From IMG/VR virus record IMGVR_UViG_3300031963_000665, positions 1 through 30,185 of that record: a stretch of DNA of 30,185 nucleotides, one strand, 5' to 3'. The stretch comes from a virus. The number at the start of each line of letters is the position of its first letter. Position 1 is the stretch's first letter. Made by a program: the position numbers and the translations under genes. The notes under the pieces were generated by a model. It was not told the DNA's origin. It saw only the letters and a program-made list of their open reading frames with translations, and searched no databases. This document shows positions 5,233 through 18,513 of this stretch, piece after piece.

Positions 5233-5279
5233 AATAGATCCGTTTACGGTTGTCGGTTGGCAGTTTGCGGAAAACCCAC

Positions 5280-5317
5280 GTTATAGCAATGCGTTGGGTT
5301 GTGTCCCGATTTTGCAA
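5280..5317 (-). promoter_or_regulatory. GGGACAC-type promoter, minus strand, for the tail operon
   Basis: Read on the minus strand: TTGCAAAATC, then GGGACAC (5307-5301), 15 bases, then TATAAC (5285-5280). The predicted start near 5273 gives a leader of about 40 nt before the ATG at 5232. Element and spacer are identical in layout to the copies at 5312, 13744, 16237 and 23043. It shares its TTTTGCAAAA centre with the plus-strand copy. Confidence 0.72.
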
Positions 5318-5350
5318 AAAACGGGACACCGATTGTTGAATCGTTAGGAT
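5312..5350 (+). promoter_or_regulatory. GGGACAC-type promoter, plus strand, for tape measure and tail genes
   Basis: TTGCAAAAAAC (5312-5322), GGGACAC (5323-5329), 15 bases and TAGGAT (5345-5350). The predicted start near 5357 gives a leader of about 115 nt before ATG 5473. This leader holds a purine-rich tract (5368-5382) and a 10-bp stem (5384-5393 with 5410-5419, one G-U pair). It faces away from the minus-strand copy. Confidence 0.72.
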
Positions 5351-5472: not shown

Positions 5473-7761
5473 ATGTCCAACACAGTCGTAACGCTCTCCG
5501 GCGACGATGCAAACCTATTTAAAGCCTACCAACGCATCATTGCGCAACAGGCCAAGATGGACGCAGGTTTGAAGGGGATCGGCGACCAAGCGAAAAAGAC
5601 GAAAACCGGACTCGATGCCCTCGCGTCGACTGATTTCGACGATCTCAACGACTCGATGGAGGACTTAGGCGACACGTCGGCAATCGCCGAGGGAATCACT
5701 ACTAGTACGTTTTTCAAGATGGCGTCGGCGGTCAACCTGTCACAGTTGGCAGTCGATGGACTGATTTCCAGCGTCCAGAGTTCTATCGATCACTTCAAAG
5801 AGTTGCAAAGGATCGGCGAGCAAAGCCTTGAACGAACCGAACGCACCGCAGCCGGACAGCAAGAGGCCGCGAAGAACCTAGTCAGCCTGACACCAGATGA
5901 GTTTCGCGACGTCCAAGAGCGAGTCGTACCACAAATCCAACGCGATACCGGTTTCACCGACCGCGGACTACTCAGCCGAGCATACGGGGAAGTTCGATCA
6001 ATCCTCCCGCAAAATCAAACCGAAGAACTGCTAGCAACGTCGGCACGTCTCAACCGATTGACACCCGACAACCTAGTAGAGACAGCTACATCTATCGCCG
6101 ACATCGTGCGAAATCTGAAGGTAACCATTCCGGAAGCGGTCGGCATGTTGGCCAGTGCTCAGACGGTATTCCGTGCACCGGAACAACGCATGGTCGCTCG
6201 CGGTATCGCTGACGTTTCGTCGATGGCGATCAACACCTCCACGGCAAAGGTTCCCATAACGGAGATTGCCGACCAAGCGACCGCACTTCTTAGCGTACTG
6301 GGTAAAGACGATGCGGAGGGACGTTCTAGCGTCACGGGTACGCTAAGTTTCATGGGTCAATTGCGTGATCCGTTCACTGAGAAAGCACGAACGGAGAGAG
6401 ATAAACGTTTTGAGCAGTTGACCCGCGACCGGGATCTCGAAATTGAGAACCAACGCAAATTGGAGTTGGACATCGCAAAAGCCGACGTAACAGCCAAACA
6501 GTTTTCACCGACCGACACGACACCACAGGCAGCGATCGCACGCAATGCCGCTGCCAAGGCGCGACGCGACCTAGAACGCAGTCGAGCCGATCTGAAGAAA
6601 AACGAGGATGAACTGGCTAGAATCTCGCGTCTGCAAGCGGTCCAAATGACCGACCCAGGAACGCCGTTAGGTCGGTTAGACGCGATTACAGCCAACCCAG
6701 ATTTGCGAAAAGAGGTAACAACGAATCTACAGGGTGAACTAGCGTATCGCGACGAGATGGAAGCGTTGCTGACACCGAATTCGGAGCTTCGGAAGATGCT
6801 CGAGTCGAATAGGGAAGCGATCAGCACCGACCCGAAGCAGGCAGAACGGTTGATGGGATTGCTCAGCGCGACACCGCAACAACAGCAAGCGAGTTTAGTG
6901 CAGACGGGCCAACTACAAACAGCCGCTTTCGACGATGCCAATCCTGGCCTCGCGGCATCGGCACGGATGCGACAGTTGCGGGATGAGGCTATCAGCCGAC
7001 GCAATGTCACGATGACACCCGATTACTATATCGAAAGCTTCTTCAACGGTTTGACGGGCGGTACTCTTGGATCGATGCTCGAAGCTAACGCAGTCGGAAC
7101 CGATCCGGTGGCAACAGCAGATTCAACGATAATGCAACTGAAAGACGTTCGAAATCGAATCGCATCGACAACTGACCCCAAGGCAATCGAGTATTCGAAA
7201 TTTCTAGATCAACAGATTGCAGCCATCAATCAGCAGTTAGATCTCTATCAGGAGACAATCAAAACTTCCGCGACGGTTCCGACAGCGAAACCGCTAGCAC
7301 CGGTTCCGCAGCCAGTGGCAGGTCAACCAGTCGACACCATGCCCACACCGCAACCGGCAACGACTGATCCGGTCCGACCGACGGAGATACAACAACCGGC
7401 AATCGATACCAACGTCGTCACCATGCCGCCACCCGTGCCGGTCAGTTCTCTGACTCAGCCGACGACGAGTTTGACTGAGACGCCGGTAATCGATACCAAT
7501 ATCGTGCCGACAATGCCACCGACGGCACCGGTGGTCAATGAACGCCCACAACTAAACCAATCCGAGGCATCATCTCAACAAACACAGGTGAGGGAAAACG
7601 CGGACAGCCAAACACAAATCGAACTTCTGCGGAAGCAGAACGAGTTGATGGAAGAGAACAACCGATTGTTGAAAGAGTCGGCAAAGCCTCAACAGCCGGC
7701 TCCAATTCCTCCACCGAATCCTGCGTCGATCAATTTACAGCAAACGCTTAGGAGTCAATAA
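5473..7761 (+). CDS. tail tape measure protein
   Basis: The 762-residue protein is the first gene of the rightward tail operon. It has a globular/helical N terminus (MSNTVVTLSGDDANLFKAYQ, then an AQQAKMD...GLKGIGDQAKK helix) and extended alpha-helical stretches (about 300-400, rich in ERDKRFEQLTRDRDLEIENQ-type repeats). These are followed by a proline/threonine/glutamine-rich low-complexity stretch (about 590-690) and a C-terminal coiled coil (IELLRKQNELMEENNRLLKE). This is the usual architecture of short tape measures, which set tail length during assembly and may be ejected with the DNA. The length predicts a tail of roughly 110 nm. No lysozyme or peptidase domain is visible, and no clear Shine-Dalgarno precedes the ATG. 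Confidence 0.75.
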   Translation: MSNTVVTLSGDDANLFKAYQRIIAQQAKMDAGLKGIGDQAKKTKTGLDALASTDFDDLNDSMEDLGDTSAIAEGITTSTFFKMASAVNLSQLAVDGLISSVQSSIDHFKELQRIGEQSLERTERTAAGQQEAAKNLVSLTPDEFRDVQERVVPQIQRDTGFTDRGLLSRAYGEVRSILPQNQTEELLATSARLNRLTPDNLVETATSIADIVRNLKVTIPEAVGMLASAQTVFRAPEQRMVARGIADVSSMAINTSTAKVPITEIADQATALLSVLGKDDAEGRSSVTGTLSFMGQLRDPFTEKARTERDKRFEQLTRDRDLEIENQRKLELDIAKADVTAKQFSPTDTTPQAAIARNAAAKARRDLERSRADLKKNEDELARISRLQAVQMTDPGTPLGRLDAITANPDLRKEVTTNLQGELAYRDEMEALLTPNSELRKMLESNREAISTDPKQAERLMGLLSATPQQQQASLVQTGQLQTAAFDDANPGLAASARMRQLRDEAISRRNVTMTPDYYIESFFNGLTGGTLGSMLEANAVGTDPVATADSTIMQLKDVRNRIASTTDPKAIEYSKFLDQQIAAINQQLDLYQETIKTSATVPTAKPLAPVPQPVAGQPVDTMPTPQPATTDPVRPTEIQQPAIDTNVVTMPPPVPVSSLTQPTTSLTETPVIDTNIVPTMPPTAPVVNERPQLNQSEASSQQTQVRENADSQTQIELLRKQNELMEENNRLLKESAKPQQPAPIPPPNPASINLQQTLRSQ

Positions 7762-7763
7762 CC

Positions 7764-8228
7764 GTGTCGATCTACTCCATCGGTGCACGAGCGTTTGACG
7801 ACCTACGCGGGGCGATCTGGCTACCGACACCGAACCACGAAACCGAACACCGACCAGGCCAGGATGGGCTTAGCGTTCATTCCACCGGTCGACGCGGCCG
7901 AGAGTTCGAACTGGTCAGTTCCGTCTACGCTTCGAGCTGGGCAGACGCGGCGGCATTGGGGATCGTCTACCATGCCGATCCGTCGTTAGCACCGCTGAAC
8001 ATCGTACGTGGGACAGAAACCTATGCCGCGACTTCGATCCGGTTTGTTTGCCTTGGGGTGACGTTGGAACCAGTTCGCGAGATAGTTTCATGGTCTGGTT
8101 TGCGAGTGATTTCCAGTGTGTTGACGAGGGTCACCGTGTCGCCTGCGTTTTTAGTGACCGCGCGTTGGCAACTGGTTGCGATCGATACATCGCTCGCGAT
8201 CGGTTACACGCCGGCACCGCCACCGTAG
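7764..8228 (+). CDS. small tail protein downstream of the tape measure (154 aa)
   Basis: The gene starts at GTG 7764, two bases after the tape-measure stop, with AGGAG about 8-10 bases upstream. The product begins MSIYSIGARAFDDLRGAIWL and contains GRRGREFELVSSVYASSWAD. It is compact and beta-rich, with a hydrophobic C-terminal half. Its place between tape measure and hub corresponds to small distal-tail proteins of siphoviruses. The stop codon TAG is supplied by the GTAGTGG head of a REP repeat, so the present C terminus (PAPPP) may have been set by repeat insertion. The specific role is not recognised. Confidence 0.6.
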   Translation: MSIYSIGARAFDDLRGAIWLPTPNHETEHRPGQDGLSVHSTGRRGREFELVSSVYASSWADAAALGIVYHADPSLAPLNIVRGTETYAATSIRFVCLGVTLEPVREIVSWSGLRVISSVLTRVTVSPAFLVTARWQLVAIDTSLAIGYTPAPPP

Positions 8229-11634: not shown

Positions 11635-12112
11635 AAAAGGACGCGATTACCAAGCGGCAAACGTCGGCTGGCTATGGAAACAGCAACACGTTTACACTGG
11701 CGGCGAGAACGATTCGAACTTCACCGGCACGCGACAGATAAACAAATACGGTGATTCGCAAGCGGTCGGATTGGTGACAGATCGCTACCGATTCGCTTGG
11801 GTTTCAATGCCGCGATTTAGGTTGCCCGCGGCTCGATGGGTGCTGTGGAGACGACGAGCGACAGCAAACCGACTTGGGACTAACACAGCTTTAGCAACGC
11901 CAGCAATTACTTTTACTGCACATACTTCGTTGTTGTTGACGACGAGCGTTAGAAACGGTGGTTTTGGTTGGGGATCGACAGTAACCAACCAAACTAGCCA
12001 AGTGAGTGACACGTTTACTGTCGATTTTCCGACAGCTCAAACAGTTGCCCTTGGTTCAACGGTTCTGACACTTACAAACCTTGGGACTGAAGTCGCAATG
12101 GTGAAATTGTGA
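11624..12112 (+). CDS. small tail-tip protein (162 aa)
   Basis: ATG 11624 overlaps the end of the previous gene and is preceded by CGGAG. The start at 11552 would lie deep inside that gene and is not supported. The N terminus is basic (MHHRKGRDYQAANVGWLWKQ); the C-terminal half is Thr/Val-rich (TVDFPTAQTVALGSTVLTLT), typical of exposed virion beta structure. The stop overlaps the GTG of the next gene. It is likely a tail-tip or adsorption component; no family is recognised. Confidence 0.5.
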   Translation: MHHRKGRDYQAANVGWLWKQQHVYTGGENDSNFTGTRQINKYGDSQAVGLVTDRYRFAWVSMPRFRLPAARWVLWRRRATANRLGTNTALATPAITFTAHTSLLLTTSVRNGGFGWGSTVTNQTSQVSDTFTVDFPTAQTVALGSTVLTLTNLGTEVAMVKL

Positions 12113-13062
12113 TTGGTGAACTTTCTCGCACTGTCGCGAGCCAAATTATCGCATTCACGGCATCGCCTTCGATAGTTGAATATCGAGACGAATCGATAGT
12201 GATGGCAGTCGCTCGATTGGTTCGATCTGTCGGCAATAGATCAGCGACGTTGTTTTTCGAAACGATCAACACAGACGATGAGGTCGTCGATCAAAAGCTG
12301 TTCGCCGTTCGCGTGGCTCATGAGTGGAACGGCGAATTTATCTACCTCGCCGATCGATACACGCAGTCAAGCATGAGCGGTGCATCCGTGTTCTCAAACG
12401 TTTGCGAAACAGTGCAGTTGTCTGCCGGCTTCATGGATGGATTCAACTCGATAAGCGATTCCTACCCAATCCATTTCTTTGAGAGGACTGGGTTCTATCA
12501 CTACAGAGGAATAGAAGCCAAGTGCCGAATATCACCTTGGCCAACGAGTTTCGTGAATGGAGTTCATACGATTCGATCTCCAAAAGTATCGATCTTTCGA
12601 CTCGTTGCAACGCACACGAAAAGATACTTCGTTCGAAGACGCGCGAACTACGTTCCGAACGATGCAGCCAACCCGTTTCTTTTGGCTCCGAGTGGTGACA
12701 ACACCGTCACGGCCGGCGAGGCCACAGGTGAATTTACCGAGGGAATGGTCTACACTGGTGACGAACACCCAGAAATATCGCTTACCGGCGCACGTCGGCC
12801 ATCGATCAGAACGCACGCAGAACGAACGGACATCGAACCGTTTTACTATCTGGCCGACTTGCGAGGTGGTAAAAGGATGCGAGTCACGTATCGCGAATTA
12901 GACGAAGGAACTGGCGATCCTGTCATGTCCAACGAATACCCTGAAGACGGTACAGCCAGGTCGGATCAAACGATTATCAACAGCGGAGCAATTGGGCCTG
13001 GCGGCAGCCTGAACGGTGCAACGTTCGGCGGCTCGCAATGCACGTTCATTCCGCTAATGTAG
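12109..13062 (+). CDS. tail-tip/structural protein (317 aa)
   Basis: The GTG start at 12109 overlaps the preceding stop (GTGA). The product is a beta-rich 317-residue protein ending in a glycine-rich GAIGPGGSLNGATFGGSQCT stretch followed by FIPLM. The TAG stop is provided by a REP repeat head (GTAGTGG at 13059), suggesting that the reading frame once extended further or that the repeat landed at the gene end. It is the last gene of the 5473-13062 tail block. Role inferred from position only. Confidence 0.5.
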   Translation: MIGELSRTVASQIIAFTASPSIVEYRDESIVMAVARLVRSVGNRSATLFFETINTDDEVVDQKLFAVRVAHEWNGEFIYLADRYTQSSMSGASVFSNVCETVQLSAGFMDGFNSISDSYPIHFFERTGFYHYRGIEAKCRISPWPTSFVNGVHTIRSPKVSIFRLVATHTKRYFVRRRANYVPNDAANPFLLAPSGDNTVTAGEATGEFTEGMVYTGDEHPEISLTGARRPSIRTHAERTDIEPFYYLADLRGGKRMRVTYRELDEGTGDPVMSNEYPEDGTARSDQTIINSGAIGPGGSLNGATFGGSQCTFIPLM

Positions 13063-13788: not shown

Positions 13789-14061
13789 ATGGCCACAATC
13801 GCAGACTTACAATCACGAATCAGCTCCGCAATCGCTGCGTTAGACAGTGGAAACTACGCTTCCGCCGTGTCTCTCTGCGAGGGAGCTCTACTCCTGCTCG
13901 CGGTGATTCCCGATACCCAGTTCGATATGAACGACCGTATCGAATTCGACCGAGCCGGGGCGACCGCCGCTATCAACTCCGTCATTCGTCGAGCGAAATC
14001 AGCCGCCGCCGCGCAAGTGTCCGGCGGACGTGATCAACTCGTGAGGTACACCCGTGGATAA
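13789..14061 (+). CDS. gpW-like head-tail joining protein (90 aa)
   Basis: The 90-residue protein lies directly upstream of, and overlaps, a lambda-B-type portal gene, where lambda places gpW. The sequence has an alanine-rich helical N terminus, a central MNDRIEFDRAGATAAINSVI (67 aa downstream of ATG 13789 the helix RRAKSAAAAQ begins) and a short basic end (VRYTRG). The helix-hairpin-helix layout with 'xRIEFDxA' resembles gpW's 'GRRVEFTATS', but identity is low. gpW closes the portal and creates the tail-binding site. Start 13789 fits the promoter; the longer in-frame start at 13705 lies in the repeat hairpin. Confidence 0.5.
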   Translation: MATIADLQSRISSAIAALDSGNYASAVSLCEGALLLLAVIPDTQFDMNDRIEFDRAGATAAINSVIRRAKSAAAAQVSGGRDQLVRYTRG

Positions 14062-15601
14062 GATGCCAGCCTATTTCGGGACTATCGATGTCGGTACCGC
14101 TTGGGGTGCCGTAGAGGTAGACTACCCACAGCAACACGTCGCACGACGTTGGGAAGCGGCAGAAACCAACCGGCTCAACGAAGCACACTGGCAACCAGTC
14201 TCCGACGAGATCAACGACGCACTCACCGCCGACATCAAGTTACTTCAGCAACGTTGCCGGCACGAAGCGAACAACAATTCTGTGATCGATGGCGGTATCG
14301 AAACGCACGTCACCAACGTTGTCGGCTCGACCGGCCCGACGTTGCAAGTGCTCACGGATGACGATCGATTCAATAGCGAAATCGAACAACTTCTAAAGTA
14401 TTGGTCGGCGAACTGCGAGTTTCAAGACGATTTGAGTTTGGTCGATCTTCTCGAGGGCTGGACCGCTCAATACTTGTTCAACGGCGAAATGTTGGTTCAA
14501 GAGATCGTCGGCAAAGGAATCGCGGATTATCGGTTGCACGATCTCGGGGCCGAAGCGTTCGATATGACGATTCAAAACCCCAACATCTACGGCGGGATTG
14601 AACTGGATGAAAACCAGAAAGTGAAGTTGTATCACGTCTGCGACCCAGGCAACCCAGGGGATAAAGCAAAACTCCCGAAAGAATTCACGCTCCATTGTTA
14701 TCGTCGACGGTTTGCGATGCAACGGCGCGGATTGCCACCGATGGCGTCATCGTTGCCGACCGCTGCCGATATGCGTGACTATGACGACCAAGTGCAAGAC
14801 GCAGCTCGGGCCGCTGCCGATTACTCAGTGATCATGTATTCCGATCACCCCGACGCGGACTTTTCCAAGCCACTCAACGAAAACGTTGCGGTACGTCGGC
14901 GAACGCGTTCGTATGCTCCGCCTGGTTGGAAACCGTTCGAACTGAAAGCTAGTCAACCAGGTATCACGTACGACAGCTACCGGGAACAGCGTCACACCGA
15001 TTTGGCTGGGACGCTTGGCGAAATGCCGTTGATGATTTTTCGACGGTCGGCCAGAAACCACAACATGAGTTCCGCACGATTCGACGGCGCACGGTACGGA
15101 AAAGCAATCGACCGATTCCAACGCCGGCTAGAACGTCGCATGCTCAATCCCGTTCTACGTCGATTGGTTCGAATTGCTCAGATGTTGAAGCTATTGCGAC
15201 CAACGCCCATGAATCGGATTTCACGCAAATTGCAATACGACTTTCCGCATTGTGTGTTGCCTATCGCATGGACTTGGCCAAAGCCTCCACCGGTCGACGC
15301 ATTGAAGGATTCGATGGCACAACGCATCCAGTTGGAAAACGGAACCAAGTCGTTTACGCAGGTTTGCGCAGAGAACGGCGATCGATCCGACGAAGTGATT
15401 CGACTTCGAAAGAAAGATAACACGGAACTTGCTGCGAACGATCTACCGCCGATCATCGGAGCGTTACCGGTGACGGATGTCGAATTGATCAAGTCAATCT
15501 ATTCGTTGGATGACGAAGAACCAGACGCAACGCAAGAAGAATCAACGGAAGAACCGAACGCAAATCAGACGGACGAAAGCACACCCACGGAGCCGCAATA
15601 A
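14054..15601 (+). CDS. portal protein, lambda gpB type
   Basis: The 515-residue protein contains the landmarks of lambda-type portals (Phage_portal_2): VSDEINDALTADIKLLQQRC with R-rich helices near the N terminus, NNNSVIDGGIETHVTNVVGS, GEMLVQEI, HVCDPGNPGDKAK, MRDYDDQVQDAARAAADYSV, and a C-terminal PHCVLPIAWTWPKPPPVD followed by an acidic Gln/Asn/Glu tail. It forms the dodecameric DNA-entry ring of the capsid. GTG 14054 overlaps the preceding gene, with GTGAGG seven bases upstream; ATG 14063 is possible. The stop TAA overlaps the ATG of the protease-capsid gene (TAATG). Confidence 0.85.
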   Translation: MDKMPAYFGTIDVGTAWGAVEVDYPQQHVARRWEAAETNRLNEAHWQPVSDEINDALTADIKLLQQRCRHEANNNSVIDGGIETHVTNVVGSTGPTLQVLTDDDRFNSEIEQLLKYWSANCEFQDDLSLVDLLEGWTAQYLFNGEMLVQEIVGKGIADYRLHDLGAEAFDMTIQNPNIYGGIELDENQKVKLYHVCDPGNPGDKAKLPKEFTLHCYRRRFAMQRRGLPPMASSLPTAADMRDYDDQVQDAARAAADYSVIMYSDHPDADFSKPLNENVAVRRRTRSYAPPGWKPFELKASQPGITYDSYREQRHTDLAGTLGEMPLMIFRRSARNHNMSSARFDGARYGKAIDRFQRRLERRMLNPVLRRLVRIAQMLKLLRPTPMNRISRKLQYDFPHCVLPIAWTWPKPPPVDALKDSMAQRIQLENGTKSFTQVCAENGDRSDEVIRLRKKDNTELAANDLPPIIGALPVTDVELIKSIYSLDDEEPDATQEESTEEPNANQTDESTPTEPQ

Positions 15602-18021
15602 TGCCAGCCAATGTAGTGGATCGCTCCGCCGATCCTGTCACTGCAAGAACAAAAAAGAGATCGTCGGAGCGATCTACGACAATTTGCCGAGCCGCAACCG
15701 TCGTCGATCCGTCACCGACAACGCTCGACCGCGAGAAACGCACGGTTCGTGCAGTCATAGCCACCGATTCACCAGTCACCGTCTACGATTGGGAAAACGA
15801 TGTAGAGTACGACGAGGTTCTCGTCCCGTCCGGCATGGTCGAACCAACACGCATGAAATTGCGAGTCGATCACAACACGTATCGATCGCTTGACGTGATC
15901 GGTTCCGTGTTCGATTTCACGATCACCAAACGAGCAGTCGAGGCAACGCTCCGATTCTCGCGAGCGTCCGACGTGGAGCCAATCTTTACACGCGTTGCCG
16001 AACGGGATCTAGATTCCGTTTCCATCGGTGCACGCTACTTGTTACGCAACACGAAATGGTTGGAGCCTGGACAATCACACGAAGTCGACGGGGTGAAGTA
16101 CACAGCACGGAAGATCCCGATGCGTGTTGTGCTGAAATGGGAACCGAGGGAAACGTCTATTGTGGATGAGCCTGCGGATTCCAGGGCGTTGATTCGTGGT
16201 GCTAAGAATGGATCGCGGAGCGATCCACTACGATCATGCAAAAACGGGACACGCAAACAACGTGGTGTAAATTCTTCTCGCAATCGTGCGACGAGCACCA
16301 ACGACCAATCTTTAGGGAACGAGACCATGCCAGCGACAACTCGCAAAGCTAAGACCAACCGAGGAACGAAGACCACGCGGCGAGTTCGCCCAGCGGATAC
16401 AACCGCAACCACACAACGCAAGCAATACACGGAAGACGTCGAGGATGAAGTCGACGCAGAAGATGTAGACGACGCTGACGTTGAATCGGTCGACACGGAA
16501 GAAACCGGGGCTAGCGCCCGTCGGCTCAACGAAGAACAAAGCACAAAGAACAAAGAACCTGCGTTTGACGCAGCCGCCGAACGAAAGGCCGAACGGTCGC
16601 GAATCTCTCGCATCATGGAAATGGCTTCCGGTGGCGAAAACGAAGTTCCACAGAAGCTCGTAGAACGAGCAATCAACGAAGGTTGGTCACCCGCGAAAGC
16701 CGGTCAACAATTCTTCCTCAACCTTCAAAACCGATCTAGCAAACCAACGAAACAAACCGGTGACGGAGTGAATCGAGCACCTGCCATCCACTCAGTCGAA
16801 GGAGCCAGCATCGAGGCCCTTCAGTGCGCAGTTCTACTCCGCGCCGGTTATAAACTTGACAATCCAATATTCGGCACCGACGCGGCACAAATTTCGTTTG
16901 CTCGGTCAAAAATGGATTGGTTACACCGATTCAATGACGATCTCAAGTCGAAAGGCAACTCCGATGTTGAACGCATCGTAGACGCTGGTCGAAAGATGCG
17001 ACACGATTCGGCAGTGAAGACAGCCGAACGCGTTTTGCGACTTCGCGGAAAACGAGTTTCCGAAGATCCTGAAGAAATGGTTCAACGTGCGTTCTCGGAT
17101 TCCTATCTGCCACGCGTTTTCACTGCGTTGCTCAACGTCGGTGTGATCGTTGGTTATGCAGAGTACGAAGATTCAACTATCGGCTGGGTTGATTCAGTCG
17201 ATTGGAACGACTTCCGAATGAATCAGCCTATCGGATTGGATTCCACAAGCGGTATGAAAAAGCATACACGCGGAACCAAGGCGAAACTGGTCAAGATGGC
17301 GGACTTCGGCGAACCGTACGCAATCGCACGGTACACCGGCGATCTCGTGTTCGATGATATGGATTTCATCGACGGACGGATCGACGTAAAGTCACGAATC
17401 CCGCAAGAAATGGGCCGCATGGCTGCACGTCTCCGACCGGATTTGGTGTACGCATTGCTGCACAACAACCCAACGCTAAGTGATTCGGTCACACTGTTCC
17501 ACGCTGATCGCGGAAATATCGTTACCGGTGCACCGCTCGACGTTGCTGGTTTGAGCAAGGCAGAAACAGCGATTGGTTTAGCAAAGGTTACGCAGGCCAA
17601 CGGCAACCCGCGAGCACTCAACCAAATGATGGGGCATGTGATCGTTCCGCGAACACACCGAGCCGCTGCCAAGGTTGCGACAGCTTCCACAAAGGTTATC
17701 ACCGGTTCGGCGGTAATGGTCGGCGATCTCAACCCGCACGACGGCGAGTACATGCTTCACAGTGACGCACGTCTCGACTTGGGCGTTGAGAATCCAGACA
17801 GCGGAATTTTTGTTGCTGGTGATCCAACGCGGTGGTACGGTGCCGAACGCAGCGGAACCAACACATTGCAAGCTGGTTACCGACAAGGGACCGGGCGAGC
17901 TCCGTCCATCCGCTCCTATGTTCTCACTCAAGGAACTTGGGGAATGGGTTGGGACGTTCTGCACGACATCGGTGTTGGTATCGTCCAGGCTCGCGGCCTA
18001 GTTCGATGCGACGTCGACTAA
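15601..18021 (+). CDS. prohead serine protease fused in frame to scaffold and major capsid protein (806 aa)
   Basis: The ATG overlaps the portal stop. Residues 1-35 are encoded by a REPIN. Residues about 45-200 form a prohead protease with candidate catalytic H91 (RVDHNTYRSL) and S141 (LDSVSIGARY). Residues 200-240 come from a REP repeat and the internal promoter. After M243 follow a basic then acidic scaffold-like linker (TEDVEDEVDAEDVDDADVES), a translated composite repeat (TGASARRLNEEQSTKNKE) and a capsid domain (about 400-806) of Mu gpT-like character (LPRVFTALLNVGVIVGYAEY, GRMAARLRPDLVYALLHNNP). The protease processes the prohead in assembly. No stop separates the two halves, so a full fusion and a nested capsid product may both be made. 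Confidence 0.78.
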   Translation: MPANVVDRSADPVTARTKKRSSERSTTICRAATVVDPSPTTLDREKRTVRAVIATDSPVTVYDWENDVEYDEVLVPSGMVEPTRMKLRVDHNTYRSLDVIGSVFDFTITKRAVEATLRFSRASDVEPIFTRVAERDLDSVSIGARYLLRNTKWLEPGQSHEVDGVKYTARKIPMRVVLKWEPRETSIVDEPADSRALIRGAKNGSRSDPLRSCKNGTRKQRGVNSSRNRATSTNDQSLGNETMPATTRKAKTNRGTKTTRRVRPADTTATTQRKQYTEDVEDEVDAEDVDDADVESVDTEETGASARRLNEEQSTKNKEPAFDAAAERKAERSRISRIMEMASGGENEVPQKLVERAINEGWSPAKAGQQFFLNLQNRSSKPTKQTGDGVNRAPAIHSVEGASIEALQCAVLLRAGYKLDNPIFGTDAAQISFARSKMDWLHRFNDDLKSKGNSDVERIVDAGRKMRHDSAVKTAERVLRLRGKRVSEDPEEMVQRAFSDSYLPRVFTALLNVGVIVGYAEYEDSTIGWVDSVDWNDFRMNQPIGLDSTSGMKKHTRGTKAKLVKMADFGEPYAIARYTGDLVFDDMDFIDGRIDVKSRIPQEMGRMAARLRPDLVYALLHNNPTLSDSVTLFHADRGNIVTGAPLDVAGLSKAETAIGLAKVTQANGNPRALNQMMGHVIVPRTHRAAAKVATASTKVITGSAVMVGDLNPHDGEYMLHSDARLDLGVENPDSGIFVAGDPTRWYGAERSGTNTLQAGYRQGTGRAPSIRSYVLTQGTWGMGWDVLHDIGVGIVQARGLVRCDVD
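15613..15680. repeat. REPIN-like pair translated at the protease N terminus
   Basis: A forward copy (15613-15635, GTAGTGGATCGCTCCGCC) and an inverted copy (15659-15680, ATCGTCGGAGCGATC then TACGAC) share compensating stem changes. The pair begins 12 bases after the protease start codon and is open in the coding frame (VVDRSADP ... SSERSTT). It adds about 25 residues that have no counterpart in ordinary prohead proteases. Confidence 0.88.
16210..16231 (-). repeat. REP hairpin between protease and capsid domains
   Basis: GGATCGC-GGA-GCGATCC then ACTAC, in the coding frame as GSRSDPLRS. It lies right before the internal GGGACAC promoter, at the natural end of the protease domain, which is where a former intergenic region would be expected. 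Confidence 0.9.
16237..16273 (+). promoter_or_regulatory. GGGACAC-type promoter inside the protease-capsid ORF
   Basis: TGCAAAAAC (16237-16245), GGGACAC (16246-16252), 15 bases, TAAATT (16268-16273). The predicted start near 16280 precedes an AGGGA ribosome-binding site (16314-16318) and ATG 16327. It would express the capsid part alone, at a higher level than the protease. Confidence 0.7.
16327..18021 (+). CDS. major capsid protein, nested start (564 aa)
   Basis: ATG 16327 is in frame with the protease ORF but has its own promoter (16237-16273) and AGGGA eight bases upstream. This start gives a 564-residue product MPATTRKAKTNRGTKTTRRV with a basic N terminus, an acidic scaffold-like linker and the capsid domain (ending VRCDVD). 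The arrangement parallels nested scaffold/protease genes of lambda-like phages and would meet the need for many capsid copies per protease. The linker contains a translated GGGGCTAGCGCCC/heptamer composite repeat (16502-16560). Mu gpT-type capsid family is my best match. Confidence 0.65.
   Translation: MPATTRKAKTNRGTKTTRRVRPADTTATTQRKQYTEDVEDEVDAEDVDDADVESVDTEETGASARRLNEEQSTKNKEPAFDAAAERKAERSRISRIMEMASGGENEVPQKLVERAINEGWSPAKAGQQFFLNLQNRSSKPTKQTGDGVNRAPAIHSVEGASIEALQCAVLLRAGYKLDNPIFGTDAAQISFARSKMDWLHRFNDDLKSKGNSDVERIVDAGRKMRHDSAVKTAERVLRLRGKRVSEDPEEMVQRAFSDSYLPRVFTALLNVGVIVGYAEYEDSTIGWVDSVDWNDFRMNQPIGLDSTSGMKKHTRGTKAKLVKMADFGEPYAIARYTGDLVFDDMDFIDGRIDVKSRIPQEMGRMAARLRPDLVYALLHNNPTLSDSVTLFHADRGNIVTGAPLDVAGLSKAETAIGLAKVTQANGNPRALNQMMGHVIVPRTHRAAAKVATASTKVITGSAVMVGDLNPHDGEYMLHSDARLDLGVENPDSGIFVAGDPTRWYGAERSGTNTLQAGYRQGTGRAPSIRSYVLTQGTWGMGWDVLHDIGVGIVQARGLVRCDVD
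16502..16560 (+). repeat. composite repeat translated inside the capsid gene
   Basis: AAACCGGGGCTAGCGCCCGT (16502-) continues TCGGCTC and then GAAGAAC/AAAGCAC/AAAGAAC heptamers. Module order matches the minus-strand intergenic copy at 3935-4001. It encodes GASARRLNEEQSTKNKE within the linker upstream of the capsid fold, without disrupting the frame. Confidence 0.82.
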
Positions 18022-18022
18022 C

Positions 18023-18130
18023 GTAGTGGATCGCTCCGCGATCCATTCTTAAAAAACACATTATCAAAAACATCCTGAACCGCTTCGGCGGTTTAGTTCG
18101 GGGAATCAGGATTGCGGAGCAATCCGCTAC
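18023..18130. repeat. REPIN with nested TTCG hairpin after the capsid gene
   Basis: A forward REP copy (18023-18044) and an inverted copy (18109-18130, GGATTGC-GGA-GCAATCC then GCTAC) flank a 64-base loop. Inside it, AACCGC-TTCG-GCGGTT (18078-18093) is a perfect tetraloop hairpin within an outer CCTGA/TCAGG pairing. This is a good candidate terminator or processing site between capsid and decoration genes. Confidence 0.9.
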
Positions 18131-18150: not shown

Positions 18151-18513
18151 ATGTCGTTGTTGATCAAAGATTTGGGCGGAGTCGACGGACGCGAAGAATA
18201 CGTTTGTCTAGCGGAAACACTTCCGGGGGCAATCGTCCAGACAACTGACGGATTGCTCGGCTACGTCATGGGCTCGCGAGCCTATGCGACTGGTGAGAAA
18301 GCGCCAATCATTACCGACGGACTTGTATCGCTAGACTCCGCGTCCGGTACGACGTTCTCCGTCGGGGCATCAGTTTATTACAACATGACCACAAAGCTAG
18401 CCGTCGCATCCGGTGCACATCCGCAAGCCGGGGGAGCGATCAAGGCGAAGACTAGCGGCCAGTTGTTTGTCGACGTGCGATTGAATCAGCTCAAACTAGC
18501 AGCCGGTAGCTAA
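18151..18513 (+). CDS. capsid decoration/cement protein, DUF2190-like (120 aa)
   Basis: The 120-residue protein contains the DUF2190 pattern: an N-terminal LPGAIVQTTDGLLGYVMGSR strand pair, then GEKAPIITDGLVSLDSASGT, GASVYYNMTTKLAVASG and a closing AGGAIKAKTSGQLFVDVRL. Members of this family stabilise phage capsid shells. Position straight after the major capsid gene fits. A weak AGGG precedes ATG 18151. The upstream gap holds a REPIN that may limit read-through from the capsid transcript. Confidence 0.7.
   Translation: MSLLIKDLGGVDGREEYVCLAETLPGAIVQTTDGLLGYVMGSRAYATGEKAPIITDGLVSLDSASGTTFSVGASVYYNMTTKLAVASGAHPQAGGAIKAKTSGQLFVDVRLNQLKLAAGS

Follow-up and report, generated by a model that had tools for sequence, protein, structure and literature searches.

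The fused head gene of this virus probably directs the synthesis of two in-frame products from one mRNA, a reading to which we assign a probability of roughly 84%. Initiation at ATG 15601 would generate an 806-aa protease-scaffold-capsid fusion, and initiation at an internal SD-ATG at 16327 would generate a 564-aa scaffold-capsid precursor that lacks the protease. The 564-aa form would be the dominant product and would supply the majority of shell subunits; a minority of full-length fusions would co-assemble through the shared scaffold-capsid part and thereby carry the protease into the procapsid, where it would then cleave off the protease part as well as the scaffold. The nested start would thus hold the protease dose low despite its fusion to the most abundant virion protein. 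An earlier note on this DNA had proposed two same-frame products from an internal start, and comparison with relatives strongly supports that proposal: the SD-ATG is kept at the junction, its codons are frozen in two large clades, and split genes start there. We infer from these sequence comparisons that both starts are used in the gene described here.

The window, by which we mean the whole 30,185-bp stretch of DNA analysed, is a virus record that encodes an integrase, a lambda-type portal, the 806-codon fused ORF, a cement protein and a GpA-type terminase (Table 1). Its REP sequences are also present in Planctomycetaceae and Pirellula genomes, and the host was therefore taken to be, very probably, a freshwater planctomycete.

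Table 1. Positions of the fused head gene, its parts and its neighbours in the window.
Feature	Position	Strand	Basis or remark
Portal protein gene (lambda type)	14054..15601	+	Adjoins fused ORF on 5' side; family matches
Fused ORF, prohead protease-scaffold-major capsid protein, 806 aa	15601..18021	+	Single open frame; family matches
REP pair, REPIN-like (one + copy, one inverted)	15613..15675	+	Codons 5-25 of fused ORF, 5' of protease fold
Prohead protease domain, residues 40-200	15718..16200	+	Family alignments; AlphaFold2 model
Linker, predicted disordered, residues 201-319	16201..16557	+	pLDDT <50
REP unit in linker	16203..16232	-	Read through in frame, no stop; exact 30-bp inverted copy of 18022-18051
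GGGACAC, proposed promoter, unsupported	16246..16252	+	
AGGGA, putative SD site of nested start	16314..16318	+	Duplex -5.8 kcal/mol
Putative nested gene, scaffold-capsid precursor, 564 aa, ATG at codon 243	16327..18021	+	Comparison with relatives
Helical scaffold (delta-like) region, residues 324-480	16570..17040	+	Model; predicted role
HK97-fold major capsid domain, residues 490-806	17068..18018	+	Phage_capsid_4 match, model, Foldseek
REP unit directly after capsid stop codon	18022..18051	+	
Head decoration (cement) protein gene	18151..18513	+	Adjoins fused ORF on 3' side; family matches

The protease-like N-terminal and capsid C-terminal parts that the earlier note had read in the 806-codon ORF were borne out by the single open frame and by matches to head and protease families. 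The whole protein matched NF045541 at 236.5 bits (E 6e-70), below the curated cut-off of 525 bits, and by this measure it is a distant relative rather than a formal member; its protease, scaffold and capsid parts follow one another within a single frame, which is the NF045541 layout. His91 and Ser141 of the protease domain are invariant in two family alignments and are probably the catalytic residues. Phage_capsid_4 (PF25209) matched residues 501-802 at 72.3 bits, above its gathering cut-off of 27 bits, and the best Foldseek matches of the C-terminal domain were HK97-fold phage capsids and encapsulins (probability 1.00). In an AlphaFold2 model of the protein built from 36 sequences, residues 1-39 were disordered and Met243, the first residue of the putative nested product, fell inside the predicted disordered linker. 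Nothing was returned by a PDB search by sequence with the 806-aa protein alone, an Rfam scan, the P0001 search of genome contigs or a scan with the nine-sequence alignment A3. A second record, L003, is identical to the window over 10.4 kb (0 mismatches) except for an 8-bp tandem duplication, AAACTTGA, at about 5252-5268 (window position about 16852), which breaks both the fusion frame and the nested frame and is either a real mutation or an assembly error.

AGGGA sits eight bases 5' of the in-frame ATG 16327, as had been claimed for an internal ribosome-binding site and start, and the arrangement proved common to relatives. Its duplex energy equals that of the first start and lies within the range for other window genes, and the region around it was 70% unpaired in an RNA model, the most accessible among eight starts compared. 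The canonical anti-SD CACCTCCT is present in one genome of a related planctomycete of the Pirellulaceae family. ATG 15601 overlaps the portal stop codon (TAATG), which suggests a coupled, weaker initiation of the fusion. When the six upstream codons were recoded synonymously, only 1% of the recodings yielded an SD as strong as that of the window. A per-gene synonymous-shuffle test gave weak results (median p 0.2 over 34 clusters; p 0.01 for the window), and more weight was therefore placed on synonymous freezing across clades, on codon phase and on the split homologues. Taken alone, the SD-ATG of the window is suggestive; it is the comparison with relatives that decides the case for the putative nested start. 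The product from ATG 16327 would carry approximately 160-240 scaffold-region residues ahead of the capsid fold and therefore would not be the capsid protein alone, as the earlier note had expected, but a scaffold-capsid protein.

Phage records and IMG/VR supplied the 190 full-length fusions, forming 38 clusters at 70% identity, in which conservation of the SD-ATG was assessed. An in-frame ATG located 26-62 codons past the protease motif W.P.E.S was found in 189/190 fusions and 37/38 clusters, and an ATG preceded by an SD at or below the threshold of -5 kcal/mol was found there in 184 of the 190 fusions and 34 of the 38 clusters. Such an SD precedes 22% of the in-frame ATGs elsewhere in the fused genes, and the best of the control intervals away from the junction scored 16/38 clusters. 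The SD core occurred in all three codon phases among the fused relatives (14/10/10), and it is therefore the DNA that is conserved and not a peptide motif. In the 71 LPPA33-like fusions the SD codons are frozen (GAG in 71/71 and GAA in 69/69); glutamate codons elsewhere in these genes mostly show synonymous identities of 0.5-0.9, and conserved columns have a mean synonymous identity of 0.62, with 9 of 315 reaching 0.99, four of them near the nested start. The synonymous-constraint figures come from clades other than that of the window protein, whose nearest homologues are about 30-36% identical to it. At the border between protease and scaffold the relatives thus share a conserved internal start that is in frame and has a ribosome-binding site of its own, and on this comparison the nested start is very probably real.

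Several further features were noted in the collection. A second motif, GGCCGCCGTG, located 27-40 nt 5' of the nested ATG in LPPA33-like sequences L121-L200, is strongly conserved at synonymous sites. The fusion on a prophage-like contig (L111:3004-5078) is frameshifted in the scaffold part, 3' of the nested start. Contigs L251-L257 and L259 match the protease part only; of four representatives examined, at least three (L251, L254 and L255) have an in-frame SD-ATG past the protease, within a long ORF whose C-terminal part is divergent.

Phages with separate genes, which the earlier note had named as a comparison, start their scaffold-capsid gene at the matching place in both groups where they were found. 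In Firmicutes phages (L226, L231-L249 and L258) the protease gene ends 42-52 codons past the motif, and a strong SD precedes the scaffold-capsid gene that opens there, whether or not it shares the frame of the protease; a single in-frame stop codon separates L226, L242 and L246 from a fusion. Two split forms, L369 and L370, in which the scaffold-capsid protein has its own gene, were found among Pirellulaceae genomes. L369 contains an extra gene between its protease and scaffold-capsid genes (reverse strand, 1887-2381) that by eye resembles an adenine methyltransferase. Since split relatives begin their scaffold-capsid gene at the matching place, the putative nested start is the counterpart of an independent gene's own start codon. 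Comparison documents the arrangement, its conservation, the synonymous constraint in relatives and the homology between nested and independent starts.

Fused forms also occur among the Pirellulaceae genomes. In L342-L344 and L346-L348 the place matching the nested start, or a site close to it, is occupied by an ATG or GTG, and L345 has an AAGGAG-ATG at codon 196. The GTG of L342-L344, with its weak SD, counts against our main reading, as do the moderate SD of the window and the distance to its nearest homologues.

That the fusion is the sole product, with all copies assembling with their protease and the capsid protein freed by cleavage, would agree with a frame that is open throughout and with an arrangement flexible enough for fused and split forms to interconvert, and cleavage is needed in any case. 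We judge it very unlikely, since it leaves unexplained both an SD-ATG that is retained at the same place in nearly all fusions, in every codon phase and synonymously frozen, and the start of a separate gene at that place in split relatives.

A tree of the capsid part requires at least two changes between fused and split forms, and a single split clade was rejected (AU p 4e-87). These results indicate that fused and split forms interconvert across the family, and at this level they uphold the general idea in the earlier note that the linker has its counterpart in an intergenic junction. The rows nearest to the window by path are split forms among planctomycete prophages and its weakly supported sister group is fused, so that its lineage may have changed in either direction. 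The former placement would favor an accidental joining, in which the scaffold-capsid protein from 16327 is functional, the working protease ends in the linker, and read-through of the REP-containing linker is incidental and of little function. The linker is predicted to be disordered, its codon usage is weakly gene-like and the probability that it is open by chance is about 6%, all of which would also suit such a joining; the codon usage counts against our main reading as well, though it concerns the linker and not the start. With no stop codon between the parts, however, ribosomes that initiate at 15601 must make the fusion, and seven of the nine planctomycete relatives in the tree besides the window, and all of the proteobacterial relatives collected, are fused. 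We therefore give accidental joining very little credence.

A REP-type palindrome (16210-16226) within the 30-bp linker unit does lie at the junction, just 5' of the segment in which the earlier note had located it, but it does not show the loss of a stop codon that it was taken to signal. As a sign of a lost stop the REP was not accepted: fused relatives from Proteobacteria, Firmicutes and planctomycetes, the nearest ones included, lack this REP, and REPs also lie in the N-terminal codons of the ORF itself. REPs in the phage favor gene ends. The GTAG of a REP provides the stop codon of two other ORFs, 7764-8228 (stop 8226-8228) and 12109-13062 (stop 13060-13062), and gene ends in this phage are therefore set by REP insertion. 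REPs of the host, too, are found inside mechanical ORFs, and the position of a REP is by itself a poor guide. What the linker REP does show is that the linker tolerates insertions.

The earlier note had also assigned the nested gene a promoter of its own, GGGACAC, which would produce a separate capsid mRNA. The heptamer is over-represented in the window (9 copies versus 1.7-3.5 expected), but the copies lie within genes, on both strands and at irregular distances from starts. The promoter was rejected for want of a partner element or a consistent position, and a scan of 15500-16700 confined to sigma-70-like sites found none. Since an internal ribosome-binding site suffices for the nested product, an internal promoter is not needed, and a separately transcribed unit is scarcely credible. 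Two inverted GGGACAC copies 22 bp apart were observed at 5301-5329, 5' of ORF 5473-7761.

Fusions with an unrelated protease of the ClpP type (mEp460 and relatives) also have an in-frame ATG past the protease. Codons upstream of this ATG are frozen (AAA 69/69, CGT 70/70, GAG 70/70 and GAA 56/56), and codons downstream of it vary. These results suggest that the two fusion types kept, or converged on, the same nested-start design. We consider it likely, with some reserve, that the triple-fusion head genes of tailed phages, prohead- and ClpP-type alike, are nested two-product genes in which an internal start conserved at the DNA level yields the scaffold-capsid precursor, that the amount of protease depends on the ratio between two starts on a single mRNA, and that fused and split forms interconvert with the start retained.

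Genes with the same three parts in the same order and in a single frame are known for both protease types. The closest to the window gene are those of NF045541/phrog_4523, of the prohead protease type, which likewise lie between portal and decoration genes; the ClpP-type triple fusions (NF045540) share the layout. The window gene differs from known triple fusions in having REP sequences in its coding region. Gifsy-2 reportedly has a ClpP-type triple fusion, judging by the title of a 2010 paper by Effantin and colleagues on a 'tripartite capsid gene'. Gp5 of MD8 is also a ClpP-type triple fusion, for which a single gene product, and no internal start, is described (PMC8508860). No description of a nested scaffold-capsid start in fused protease-capsid genes was found in the literature accessible to us, outside which most subscription papers fall. 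Triple fusions and nested scaffold starts are known; the scaffold-capsid nested product and its extension to both unrelated protease types are undescribed in that literature.

The C-terminal scaffold part of the lambda gene C product is also made alone, as Nu3, from an internal in-frame start. Both C and Nu3 are listed as genes (PMC10695390). Unlike in the window, the nested product of lambda is scaffold only, the capsid protein E has a separate gene and the protease is ClpP-like (S49). In Mu and Mu-like phages the protease gene contains an in-frame scaffold start that has an SD and keeps a conserved position (PMC4378225); their capsid gene is separate, whereas the nested product of the window would include the capsid protein. 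HK97 genes 4 and 5, which encode the protease and then a scaffold(delta)-capsid precursor, are two separate genes without fusion and are equivalent to the split relatives described above; the predicted 564-aa product of the window resembles the HK97 delta-domain capsid precursor. Current annotations describe each of these genes as encoding a single 'protease/major capsid fusion' protein. Should the nested start be used, many phages and prophages have the wrong N terminus annotated for their most abundant virion protein, and a simple rule would explain how fusion of a protease to the capsid protein avoids the production of hundreds of protease copies. The nested-scaffold strategy of lambda and Mu would thereby be extended to whole scaffold-capsid precursors.
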